In this document: positions 25,672-47,989 of the stretch, piece after piece | How the letters are laid out: each line of letters begins with the position of its first letter | Numbering within the stretch: position 1 is the stretch's first letter | NCBI GenBank assembly: GCA_024239075.1 | Contig: JANBVI010000011.1 | Location: 1-64,000 of the forward strand | Direction of reading: 5' to 3' | From: Fischerella sp. CENA71 | GTDB lineage: Bacteria; Cyanobacteriota; Cyanobacteriia; Cyanobacteriales; Nostocaceae | Length of the DNA stretch: 64,000 nt | Program-made: the position numbers and the translations under genes | The notes under the pieces: generated by a model | What the model was told of the DNA's origin: nothing | Seen by the model: the letters and a program-made list of their open reading frames with translations, nothing else | The model's database searches: none

Positions 25672-26724
25672 ATGGCGAATAAATTCTCACTGATGGATGG
25701 CTATGATGACTTTTTGCGGGAGTTAAAAGAACGCATACGCAGCGCCCAAGTACGAGCGGCGTTGTCTGTTAACCGCGAATTGGTGTTACTCTATTGGCAA
25801 ATTGGGCGAGATATTCTGATTCGACAACAGCAGCAGGGATGGGGAGCAAAAGTAATTGATAGGTTAGCGACAGACTTGCGCCAAGCTTTCCCAGAAATGA
25901 AAGGATTTTCGCGTACAAACCTGCTTTATATGAGAGCCTTTGCAGAAGCTTACCCTGATCAACAAATTGTCCAACAACTTGTTGGACAAATACCTTGGGG
26001 ACATAACATTCGCATTTTGGATGCTGTAAAAGACCCAAGAGCGAGACTATGGTATGTACAAAAAACAATAGAAAATGGCTGGAGTAGAAATATCCTGACC
26101 CTACAGATTCAAAATCAACTTTACAATCGCCAGGGTCAAGCCATCACTAACTTTAATGCTACCTTACAATCTCCCCAATCAGACCTCGCTAGAGAAACCC
26201 TCAAAGACCCTTATGTCTTTGATTTTTTAACTTTAGGAGAATCAGCCCAAGAACGGGCAGTTGAAAAAGAGCTTGTTAAACACATTACTAAATTTCTCCT
26301 AGAATTAGGAGTTGGTTTTGCCTTTGTTGGAGAGCAGTACCCATTAAAAGTAGGTGAGGAAGACTTTTACATTGACCTTCTGTTTTATCATGTAAAATTG
26401 CATTGCTTTGTAGTAATTGAACTGAAAACGGGTAAATTTAAACCTGAATACGCAGGAAAAATTAACTTTTATCTCTCTGCGGTAGATGATTTACTCAAAT
26501 CTGACGTAGATAACGCATCTATCGGCTTAATCTTATGTGCAAGTAAGGATAATATCATCGCTGAATATGCATTACGTGATGTGAATAAGCCAATTGGTAT
26601 TGCTGAATGGCAGGCTGGACTTACTAAATCACTTCCAAAAGAACTACAAACAGAATTACCAACGATTGAGCAATTAGAAGCAGAATTAGACGCGGTTTCT
26701 GTGGAAATCGCAGATGAGAAATAA
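25672..26724 (+). CDS. YhcG-type PD-(D/E)XK nuclease domain protein
   Basis: 350 residues, the usual length. The N-terminal helical module 'VNRELVLLYWQIGRDIL' and 'GWGAKVIDRLATDLRQAFP' and 'FSRTNLLYMRAFAEAYP' (about 34-100) is the DUF1016 N-terminal domain. The C-terminal half contains the nuclease core: 'FVGEQYPLKVGEEDFYIDLLFYH' supplies the acidic residue and 'CFVVIELKTGKF' the ExK pair, about residues 223-256. Members are linked to restriction-type loci and mobile elements, acting on DNA. It stands 130 bases after the parA operon and just before a small nucleotidyltransferase-like gene. The reading frame is intact. Confidence 0.85.
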   Translation: MANKFSLMDGYDDFLRELKERIRSAQVRAALSVNRELVLLYWQIGRDILIRQQQQGWGAKVIDRLATDLRQAFPEMKGFSRTNLLYMRAFAEAYPDQQIVQQLVGQIPWGHNIRILDAVKDPRARLWYVQKTIENGWSRNILTLQIQNQLYNRQGQAITNFNATLQSPQSDLARETLKDPYVFDFLTLGESAQERAVEKELVKHITKFLLELGVGFAFVGEQYPLKVGEEDFYIDLLFYHVKLHCFVVIELKTGKFKPEYAGKINFYLSAVDDLLKSDVDNASIGLILCASKDNIIAEYALRDVNKPIGIAEWQAGLTKSLPKELQTELPTIEQLEAELDAVSVEIADEK

Positions 26725-27530: not shown

Positions 27531-28259
27531 ATGAGACAAGTAATTAAGCAAATTAAAGAGCGTAATCAAGTTGAACTCAAACGAAAAGATATTAAATACG
27601 AACTTTGGCGTTTAGATGATGCTGAATTTAGGAAGCTTAGGCAAAAGAGCCTTCCTATTAGAGATGATTATATGTTTTATATGCACTTTTATCTTTCAGA
27701 ACGTGAGAATAAAAATAAACTCAATCTAGCTGAATTTTTCGTGAGTTTAACATACTTGTTTGGCGAAAGCAGTGATTGGATTGATGATTGGAAAGGTTCT
27801 TTTTCTTTTCCATTATTATTGATTTTAGATAAAGTACAAGGGAAATTTTTCTATTTGATAGATATCTATGATAATTGCGGTACACTATACTTCAGCTTCT
27901 ACAGGATTTTAGAGAGCGATGTAGAAGGTTATGATAATCAAATACAGCGTGAACCTTTTGAACTAGAATTCTCTCGTCAAGAAATCAACTATTTTATCAG
28001 TTATTTTTATGGTTATCTTGAAGGCTATTTTCATAGTATAAAACTCTTGATACCATCTGAGCAATTCTTCAAGAAAATTGGTTCAAATCATATCCTTTAT
28101 GGGTATAAGGATAAACATTATTTTGAGGAACATTACCCATCTCCATCAGCGTATCAAACAGCTATTGAAAATCTAGAATCAATAGGAATTAGTTCTAATA
28201 CTTCACAAGATGTCAACGAGATTTTGCAAACAATAACTAGCGAAATACTCAATAAATAA
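27531..28259 (+). CDS. unrecognised protein, 242 residues
   Basis: No family is recognised. The protein is rich in Phe, Tyr, Glu and Lys and contains 'LNLAEFFVSLTYLFGESSDW' (about 63-82), 'PLLLILDKVQGKFFYLIDIYD' and 'ISYFYGYLEGYFHSIKLLIPS'. It begins 87 bases after the small antitoxin-like gene with no strong ribosome-binding site. It is the last gene before the hairpin element and the tyrosine recombinase, so it may be cargo at the end of an integrated unit. The AT-rich coding sequence is unlike the neighbouring YhcG gene. Confidence 0.55.
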   Translation: MRQVIKQIKERNQVELKRKDIKYELWRLDDAEFRKLRQKSLPIRDDYMFYMHFYLSERENKNKLNLAEFFVSLTYLFGESSDWIDDWKGSFSFPLLLILDKVQGKFFYLIDIYDNCGTLYFSFYRILESDVEGYDNQIQREPFELEFSRQEINYFISYFYGYLEGYFHSIKLLIPSEQFFKKIGSNHILYGYKDKHYFEEHYPSPSAYQTAIENLESIGISSNTSQDVNEILQTITSEILNK

Positions 28260-28270
28260 ATGTGTGAGAT

Positions 28271-28379
28271 GAGGGTCTTCCACGTACTAAAAACAGGGAG
28301 GCTTCGTCGAAATATCTCGTCGGCCCACAGATTAATCAGGGGGTATCAAGCCTCCCTGTTTTTAGAGGGGACAATGCGA
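28271..28379. repeat. long-hairpin element, copy A
   Basis: 109 bases. The left flank GGGTCTTCCACGTAC (28273-28287) precedes arm AAAAACAGGGAGGCTT (28289-28304); the complementary arm AAGCCTCCCTGTTTTT is at 28348-28363, then GGGGACAATGC. The 43-base loop contains 'ATATCTCGTCGGCC'. The flanks and the loop motif recur in copy B at 47491-47602, while the arms differ in a compensating manner. The A-run/T-run at the arm ends would also let it act as a bidirectional terminator between this gene set and the recombinase. Confidence 0.7.
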
Positions 28380-28429
28380 ATGAGGACAACTTCTAGGTAA
28401 ACTACCCACATTTCCTCTTCAAGGTGTTG

Positions 28430-35187: not shown

Positions 35188-35286
35188 TGTTAAGATCCTT
35201 GTTGAATGTATACGTTTGCTGGGCGATCGCTGATTAATCAATTGCTGATTTATAGTCGCGATCGCTCATCCTTTGAATCCTCCCTT

Positions 35287-35478
35287 AAAAATTGGGCAGG
35301 CTTCTGTCGCATATTGGCGTGTGTTAAAGAACCGGGCTTCTGGGTGATGTCGATATGCTGATAGTGCTTAGGATCTGGTCTATTAAGCCCGGTTCTTTTT
35401 CTGACCTTCGCCTCGCAGGTATTGTCGCGAAGAAGAATTGGGCTAATCGAGGGAGCTTTAAAAGCCTGCCCAATTTTT
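35287..35478. repeat. nested long hairpins
   Basis: Outer arms AAAAATTGGGCAGGCTT (35287-35303) and AAGCCTGCCCAATTTTT (35462-35478) are exact complements. Inside the loop a second hairpin has arms AAAGAACCGGGCTT (35326-35339) and AAGCCCGGTTCTTT (35385-35398). The outer arm sequence is the same as that of copy B at 47491-47602 but the flanks here do not carry the GGGTCTTCCACGTAC motif. It lies in the 250-base gap between two minus-strand operon genes and would stop or attenuate transcription in both directions. Confidence 0.6.
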
Positions 35479-35496
35479 TTAGGAAACGTCTCATCC

Positions 35497-45314: not shown

Positions 45315-45418
45315 TTAGGGGAGACCGCAAAAAAAAGATACCAGCCGTGTTTTGAGTTTATTCGTTGTGCGGCGAGGGATCTGGATGTGACGGCTGGTAT
45401 CTTTTTTCAGGGCAAGTG
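45315..45418. repeat. long-hairpin element, distant copy D
   Basis: Arms AAAAAAGATACCAGCCGT (45331-45348) and ACGGCTGGTATCTTTTTT (45390-45407) are exact complements. Before it stands AGTTAGGG, as in copy B, and after it GGGCAAGTGC, close to GGGGACAGTGC of copy B. The loop of 41 bases has 'TTATTCGTTGTGCGGC', weakly like the loop motif of copies A and B. It sits between the recombinase module and a reverse transcriptase fragment. Membership is suggestive, not proven. Confidence 0.45.
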
Positions 45419-46723: not shown

Positions 46724-47395
46724 TTCTGCGATGCCGTGGGCAGTTTCGTTCCCACATCCTACCCGTATCTTTCTGTTAAACGGTTAATCATGCCGCTCCA
46801 CTAGCTCTCTTGGGAACCCTCCCATCTCAGTTAGCTTTTAGGTAGCTGGGTAGGCTAGAAGTTTAGATACGTTTTTCCTCGTTCCGATTGGTAGATTTTT
46901 TCTACCGATTTAGGTTTCTCCAATTCGCCCACTAGCATCTGGGGACTGTATCTCTCTCCAAAAAAAGGATGCGAGAATATTGCTAGTGTACAGGGCAGGC
47001 TGTAGCTCATGCTAACATCGGTTTTCTCTGCTAGGGACTAGGACGCTTTTTTAGGAGATTTGCGTAAGCTAACCTCATAGAGGCTCCCTGTTAGCGCCAG
47101 TGTGACCTCAACCGAGGAAGTCTCTGATTGCGCCCTGCTACCAGCTTCGCTTTGGTGATTAACCTCCGCGTGGTCAGGTAAGGAGTCACGTTGTCCTTAA
47201 CGGGTGGGATTTTCACCCACATCCATCAATCACTTATGGGATTTTCAAGGTTCAAACTTGACGTTCCCACCTAGAGCGATGAATTTACTCTAGAACGAGT
47301 CGCACCTTGTAGATCCCCAATCAACTGTGACGAAAAAGTGAGATTAACCAAAACGTTTTGGTTATACTAATTGAAAAATCATTGAAGTTTCATTA
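46724..47395. other. 670-base noncoding region, structured in the middle
   Basis: No frame of more than about 50 codons looks coding. From 47060 to 47270, the minus strand shows a dense chain of small hairpins: GTTAAGGA...TCCTTACC, GGGTG...CACCC, CCTC-GAGG twice, and ACCA...TGGT. This could be a structured RNA, such as the guide-type RNA of an IscB/TnpB element or a group II intron domain whose protein part is lost. I cannot assign it. Confidence 0.45.
46990..47270 (-). ncRNA. possible structured RNA remnant
   Basis: Minus-strand hairpins include GTTAAGGA with TCCTTACC (near 47177-47201), the palindromic GGGTGGG/CACCCAC area near 47200-47220, and two CCTC/GAGG stems near 47073-47083 and 47105-47118. 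The compact alternation of stems and A-rich loops is unlike spacer DNA. The style is that of HEARO-type RNA, but no IscB frame follows and the identification is a guess. Confidence 0.3.
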
Positions 47396-47632
47396 GGTCT
47401 TTCCAAAAAATCAAATGAGAGCGCCCTCGCGTTCCCACGAATGTGGGAACGCTTACCAGTCCTTGGACTCTTGCAAAATATATTTGATAGAGTTAGGGTC
47501 TTCCACGTACCAAAATTGGGCAGGCTTCACTGAGAGATAACTCATCGGCCAATTAAATAAGCCTGATAAAAGCCTGCCCAATTTTGTCGGGGACAGTGCA
47601 ACGGCGCTCTCATTTTATTTCTTGGAGATCCC
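47396..47632. repeat. MITE with IS630-like ends, copy with inner hairpin
   Basis: Ends GGTCTTTCCAAAAAATCAAA (from 47396) and, on the other strand, GGGATCTCCAAGAAATAAAA (from 47632) are imperfect terminal inverted repeats, each continuing into TGAGAGCGCC. A palindrome GCGTTCCCAC/GTGGGAACGC is at about 47432-47455. Compared with the copy at 18249-18355 (inverted) it carries an extra 112-base hairpin element at 47491-47602. Confidence 0.7.
47491..47602. repeat. long-hairpin element, copy B, inside a MITE
   Basis: 112 bases. AGTTAGGGTCTTCCACGTAC opens the element, arm AAAATTGGGCAGGCTT is at 47512-47527, arm AAGCCTGCCCAATTTT at 47570-47585, and GGGGACAGTGCAAC closes it. The loop has 'GATAACTCATCGGCC'. 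The flanking MITE sequence is contiguous at the corresponding site in the copy at 18249-18355, so the element boundaries are defined by comparison. Confidence 0.75.
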
Positions 47633-47989
47633 TTATAGATAAACAAATCTGAAGAACCGCTTGGGTATCTGCATCCTTAAAAAACCCAGCCTTATTTATT
47701 CGTACGAGCGTTCAAGATTCAGCATTGAGGTGGCTTTCTGGCTGAGATTTTTTTAACGGCTCCTCCCTTGAAAGATTGCCTAAACAAATGGGCAGACTTT
47801 CTAGTTGGTTCAATCTGAATGACAGAAAATCTTCAATGAGAGGTGATAGCCCTGATTCATCAACTGCATCTCATCTTGTAACTCCCAGTTTGCTACTACA
47901 TTTAGGCGGTTAGAAAAAAGCCAGAACGGAAGAATAGGGGTATTAAAAATCTAAAATCCATTTAGGGTATTTGATCACACCTTCTCAGT
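47633..47989. other. intergenic region, no gene seen
   Basis: About 350 bases between the MITE and the ParR-like gene. No coding frame stands out. Short stretches resemble the hairpin arms (AAAAAACCCAGCC near 47678) but no partner arm is obvious. Confidence 0.4.

Follow-up and report, generated by a model that had tools for sequence, protein, structure and literature searches.

A dispersed palindromic element of filamentous cyanobacteria, found between genes and in frame within them, with two copies in a window of Fischerella sp. CENA71

Two closely similar hairpins occur in a 64,000-nucleotide stretch of DNA from Fischerella sp. CENA71 (contig JANBVI010000011.1, positions 1 to 64,000; hereafter the window), and the question raised by the locus is what sort of element preserves both its pairing and its flanks. 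Compensated differences between the two had been taken as a sign of selection on a folded form, either RNA or single-stranded DNA. A folded RNA with a function of its own is not supported. Vacant sites, copies nested in one another, spread as part of other repeats and in-frame positions inside genes indicate a mobile palindrome, non-autonomous and about 105 bp long, that would be moved by an enzyme encoded elsewhere and would persist where it does little harm. This reading is given a probability of roughly 85%; a terminator or a conventional RNA gene is rejected as the main explanation. The family, its pairing, the empty and filled sites and the open in-frame insertions are direct observations, and the proposed mode of movement is discussed after them.

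A sequence read-out places both hairpins where the original prediction had located them. Copy A measures 105 bp from the GGG at 28273 to the TGC at 28377, and copy B 104 bp from the GGG at 47496 to the TGC at 47599. Both are intergenic, and both are matched in the window by the covariance model R2 (E 3.8e-25 for A and 6.6e-24 for B, each being a training member of that model). The features of the window are the following.

28269-28272, plus strand: ATGA immediately left of copy A; a second ATGA lies at 28380-28383, a possible duplicated target
28271-28378, plus strand: copy A, in the coordinates of covariance model R2
28271-28286, plus strand: constant left end of copy A, GAGGGTCTTCCACGTA
28287-28304, plus strand: left arm of copy A, 18 bp
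28348-28365, plus strand: right arm of copy A, 18 bp, 100% complementary
28366-28377, plus strand: constant right end of copy A, terminating in GGGGACAATGC
35266-35496, minus strand: a third, related copy, whose ends differ (GAGACGTTTCC type) and whose loop contains a nested second hairpin; flanked by GGATGA on each side
47392-47636, no strand assigned: larger repeat enclosing copy B, with imperfect inverted ends (39 nt, 79%)
47491-47602, plus strand: copy B stretch not present where the surrounding repeat is uninterrupted (net difference 111 bp)
47494-47600, plus strand: copy B, in the coordinates of covariance model R2
47511-47527, plus strand: left arm of copy B, 17 bp
47570-47586, plus strand: right arm of copy B, 17 bp, 100% complementary

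All four differences between the arms of A and B are compensated, as had been proposed for arms of 16 bases; the true arms are slightly longer.

The two copies belong to a dispersed family. The model R2, built from 36 copies, matches 36 of the 146 genomes of the taxonomic family to which the window belongs and 17 of its 56 genera (E 1e-6 or better); six of the 36 matching genomes supplied training copies, and among the others 30 of 140 match. A DNA similarity search found the element in 6 of 60 genomes, the window's own genome counted, and the only plasmid match bearing a name was that of Fischerella sp. NIES-4106. On this plasmid (AP018302.1, locus L080, 7001-8845), the annotated start of NIES4106_60910 coincides with the first base of the matched element. 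The hosts are cyanobacteria and not Rickettsia. In five genomes of the same genus, 50 places match the left-end motif GGGTCTTCCACGTA with no more than one mismatch, against 7 for a reversed control pattern; among the 50, a GGGTCTTCCAGGTA match present once each in G000, G001, G003 and G004 could be a shared site of unrelated origin. A broader left motif gives 64 places against 15 for its control (five genomes) and the right-end motif 74 against 3 (five genomes from four genera). The length from GGG to TGC is 101-110 bp in 69 distinct copies, being 104 or 105 in 44 of them, and the stem is 17-18 bp long in 65. Many copies, strong covariation and constant ends near 105-110 bases had been anticipated, and this part of the prediction is supported. 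Cousins with similar stems and other ends also exist.

Pairing is strongly maintained across the 36 aligned copies: 95.6% of the stem cells are paired, and changes on both sides are seen at 15 of the 18 stem pairs. The covariation score is 0.430, compared with 0.121 (sd 0.012) in shuffles; none of 500 shuffles attains any of five pairing measures, and slid versions score far lower. In the same alignment the ends, GGGTCT..CACG on the left and GGGGACAATGC on the right, are almost invariant and exceed the arms in constancy, which bears out the suggestion that the flanks are conserved. The loop splits into subgroups, and a loop motif originally offered as a trait of the family is common to subgroups only. 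Since the GTCT and GGAC columns of the two ends hardly vary, they speak neither for nor against a pairing between the ends.

Covariation of this kind would also be expected of a structured RNA, either a small RNA or a cis-regulator, selected as RNA; it is expected to the same extent if movement requires folded DNA. No Rfam family reaches its gathering score within the window, the best weak match near copy A being an animal microRNA family with 24.6 bits against a gathering score of 82, which was judged to be due to chance. Copies are tied to no single class of genes, those within genes lie in either orientation, and presence or absence at the same locus is common. Selection as an RNA is therefore given a very low probability.

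A bidirectional terminator, whose stem and A and T tracts would halt transcripts coming from both neighboring genes, is suggested by the surroundings of copy A. This copy begins 13 bases past the stop codon of the open reading frame 27531-28259, with convergent genes on either side, and a scan around it detects 2 terminator-like sites on the plus strand against 0.3 in shuffles. The element also shares a GC-rich stem and A and T tracts with intrinsic terminators, from which it differs in possessing conserved ends beyond the stem, less variable than the arms, and in occurring within genes and at gene joints. The scan around copy B gives 1 site against 0.6. Copies are not confined to positions directly after genes; they are found within open reading frames and between neighboring co-directional genes. 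Moreover, the gene preceding copy A has a homologue on a Calothrix plasmid (protein 88% identical), and there the sequence after the gene matches up to TGTGTGA, with no element following. From this comparison copy A is an addition and not a terminator belonging to the preceding gene, and a bidirectional terminator is a highly unlikely explanation for the family. The right flank of copy A is found without the element in G004:C7 and G003:C24; an exact empty site was not found for this copy, as no single relative carries both of its flanks.

Evidence for insertion comes from loci that are filled in one genome and empty in others. Copy B interrupts a larger repeat, the left part of which recurs many times in five genomes of the same genus, and eight of eight uninterrupted copies read TTTGATAGGGC straight through the point at which B starts (a ninth fetched piece, G000:C30, lacks the search motif). 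The stretch absent from these copies is exactly the interval 47491-47602 that had been assigned to B beforehand. A PriCT-2 gene on G000:C33 contains a 111-bp insert with ATGA on both sides, and the site is empty in all three aligned plasmids (Tolypothrix PCC 7712, Nostoc ATCC 53789 and Nostoc UHCC 0870; 3 of 94 matching records were aligned). An IS630-type gene on G001:C17 carries a 108-bp insert with cousin ends and AGATGA on both sides, which is missing from three of three aligned copies. In a GTPase gene on G014:C7, a 111-bp insert with cousin ends is bordered by GGTGA and GGTAA; the site is empty in 11 of 11 aligned relatives, which show GGTAA/GGCAA-type letters (12 of the 14 loci returned by the search entered this alignment, L206 and L207 being excluded). 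The flanks of locus L021 (G000:C14) join in G002:C434 with five shared letters, GGTAA, and a net difference of 113 bp, the boundaries being taken from BLAST coordinates and the sequence letters themselves, as a MAFFT alignment was wrong around the insert; the same element recurs elsewhere, in G004, with 99% identity over 120 bp. Finally, the counterpart of the 35266-35496 copy in G002:C457 bears an extra main-type element, 119 bp long and bordered by CCC at either end; the corresponding stretch of the window lacks it.

In five of these comparisons between empty and filled sites, 3-6 letters are repeated on the two sides, with lengths that vary from case to case (CCC, ATGA, GGTAA, AGATGA). Copy B and the nested copy L187 have no clean target duplication, and insertion lengths are not all multiples of three, as seen in the 112-, 113- and 119-bp cases. 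Some copies are nested inside others. An apparent case of an element within another is L150 in G077:C1, situated in a TnpB-type open reading frame that stays open (429 codons). In G002, 13 places show a cousin hairpin at one fixed position within a different dispersed repeat, whose ends are rich in GACGCG, so that part of the spread is hitch-hiking. Remnants that keep both ends and lack most of the hairpin were detected at G000:C43:57814, G001:C119:11314, G004:C1:6734737, G075:C10:447752 and G014:C22:9682; such remnants are expected if the palindrome is sometimes deleted.

Most copies lie between genes; how those within genes are accommodated was assessed in two sets. Among 88 places of the first (the listed rows not used were for the most part the same hairpins read from the opposite strand, remnants without a hairpin, and places not retrieved), 25 are flanked on both sides by open frames of at least 60 codons on one strand. 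The two frames agree in 17 of the 25 and differ in 8, and the reading frame remains open through the element in 11. A second set, consisting of the first 40 listed R2 places outside G000-G004 and G014, represents other genera; here 11 places qualify, of which 6 are shifted and 5 are open throughout, two near-identical neighbors being among the 5. Measured against a chance expectation of one third for frame agreement, the first set is enriched and the set from other genera is not clearly so. Main-type copies are in frame in the PriCT-2 protein (Pfam PF08707; 111 bp, equal to 37 codons), a DUF3854 protein, a C-5 cytosine methylase, two TnpB-type open reading frames, and the reading frames L064, L065, L084, L085 (homologue L075) and L142, which have no Pfam match. 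Cousins lie in frame in an IS630-type transposase, a tyrosine recombinase, an MCP-domain protein, L059 and the GTPase, whose best NCBIfam match, with a partial protein as query, is slr1306_fam at 117.5 bits, below the cut-off of 490. Out-of-frame copies occur as well: both halves of the interrupted gene match transposase families at L138 and L159, and at L148 a family match, to OrfB_IS605, is obtained for the right half only. Where copies lie at gene joints, in L029, L037, L140 and L162, the stop of the first gene and the start of the second are both preserved.

Constant-ended hairpins in conserved genes, such as that of the GTPase between the P-loop and the next conserved motif, could bring to mind an intron-like or bypass element, which would leave the protein unchanged because the hairpin is removed from the transcript or passed over during translation. 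The in-frame copies are open throughout and, where an empty homologue was aligned, have a net length divisible by three; as neither removal nor skipping would require these properties, they count against such a mechanism. The transposase genes split by out-of-frame copies do so too, and this explanation is regarded as most improbable.

The element itself has more stop-free frames than shuffled sequences. In the 69 distinct copies, a mean of 1.62 of the six frames are open, compared with 0.99 (sd 0.10) in dinucleotide shuffles and 1.03 (sd 0.10) in shuffles that keep the pairing. At least one plus-strand frame is open in 46 of the 69, against shuffle means of 32.8 and 29.5 (maxima of 200: 45 and 41), and either strand in 57 of the 69, against means near 45 (maxima 54 and 56). 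As the 69 copies are related, this excess of open frames is suggestive only. Together with the net length of 111 bp (37 codons) and targets such as ATGA that keep stops and starts, this excess, which would extend even to intergenic copies, leads to a bolder version of the mobile palindrome, which is considered tentatively and as the less probable form: the palindrome might be adapted to life inside genes as a mobile protein-insert module of cyanobacteria, with a hairpin that possibly aids translation or bypass.

In its simpler form, the mobile palindrome would be handled by an enzyme from elsewhere that probably recognizes the constant ends together with the arms in folded single-stranded or cruciform DNA. 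The need of this enzyme for a folded strand would explain why pairing persists while the sequence of the arms is free to change, and its recognition of the ends why these are kept. Insertion would take place at short targets such as ATGA, GGTAA and GTCA and would often leave a few letters at either end of the element. Copies would then survive between genes, where two genes meet with both stop and start intact, or in frame, where they would be read as an insert of 36-37 residues; the in-frame copies would thus be the survivors of selection against broken genes. An autonomous partner or mobilizing enzyme was not found when the end motifs in five genomes were scanned by eye, which gave no clear pair bracketing a gene.

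Among known mobile repeats, the REP/RAYT system, in which GTAG-tagged repeats are moved by REP-associated tyrosine transposases, deserves attention. REPs have been reported from filamentous cyanobacteria and, in several bacteria, from within genes (PMC3733652), and ACGTAG directly precedes the stem in some of the 36 aligned copies. Like the GTAG/CGTC repeats, the present element is a dispersed, at times intragenic palindrome, those being perfect or imperfect. However, GTAG before the stem is confined to part of the alignment, many copies having GTAC, GTAA, GTAT or GAAA at this position. REPs are described as measuring 20-40 bp, and most of their stems 6-9 bp (PMC3733652), so that the element is four to five times longer, with a long stem of 17-18 bp and long conserved ends. 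Membership of this system is accordingly considered improbable, if less so than the RNA, terminator and bypass explanations. MITEs, which are described as having terminal inverted repeats of 15-30 bp (PMC3733652) and of which Nezha is a cyanobacterial example (PMC3733652, PMC10969869), are similarly short, non-coding alone and repeated; short duplicated targets may be a further likeness in some cases. In the present element the arms, which are internal, form the long inverted repeat, and the two ends do not appear to be inverted versions of one another; a repeat finder reports no inverted repeats of 12 nt or more within copy A besides the arms, and no parent transposon was seen among the end motifs inspected by eye in five genomes.

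The closest likeness is to the Rickettsia palindromic elements (RPEs). These are described as palindromic repeats of about 100-150 bp that occupy intergenic sites as well as in-frame positions within unrelated protein genes (PMC10969869, PMC3733652). Together with the gene-internal REPs they provide a comparable kind of element, of which none had been known to the original prediction. Compared by description, both are dispersed palindromes of similar size located between genes and in frame within unrelated genes, and the cyanobacterial element would seem to work like RPEs in another phylum. It differs in its characteristic ends, and several empty and filled pairs, nesting and insertion at gene joints are seen here. 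To our knowledge, the spread of RPE-like palindromes and their tolerance inside proteins are unsettled, partly because Rickettsia is obligate intracellular and hard to work with. A comparable family that lives in free-living cyanobacteria, and whose loci can be compared between an occupied strain and vacant relatives, opens three questions to testing: the identity of the enzyme that moves the element, whether the mature protein retains the insert, and whether the ribosome copes with the hairpin. No published description of in-frame palindromes in cyanobacteria or of this Fischerella family was found in the open-licence literature, which is weak evidence that none exists.

The window holds further features of note. 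At 45331-45407, a hairpin with the arms AAAAAAGATACCAGCCGT and ACGGCTGGTATCTTTTTT and different flanks gives a weak match to R2 on the minus strand (E 1.9e-5), and positions 25672-26724 encode a YhcG-type PDDEXK nuclease with a DUF1016 N-terminal domain.
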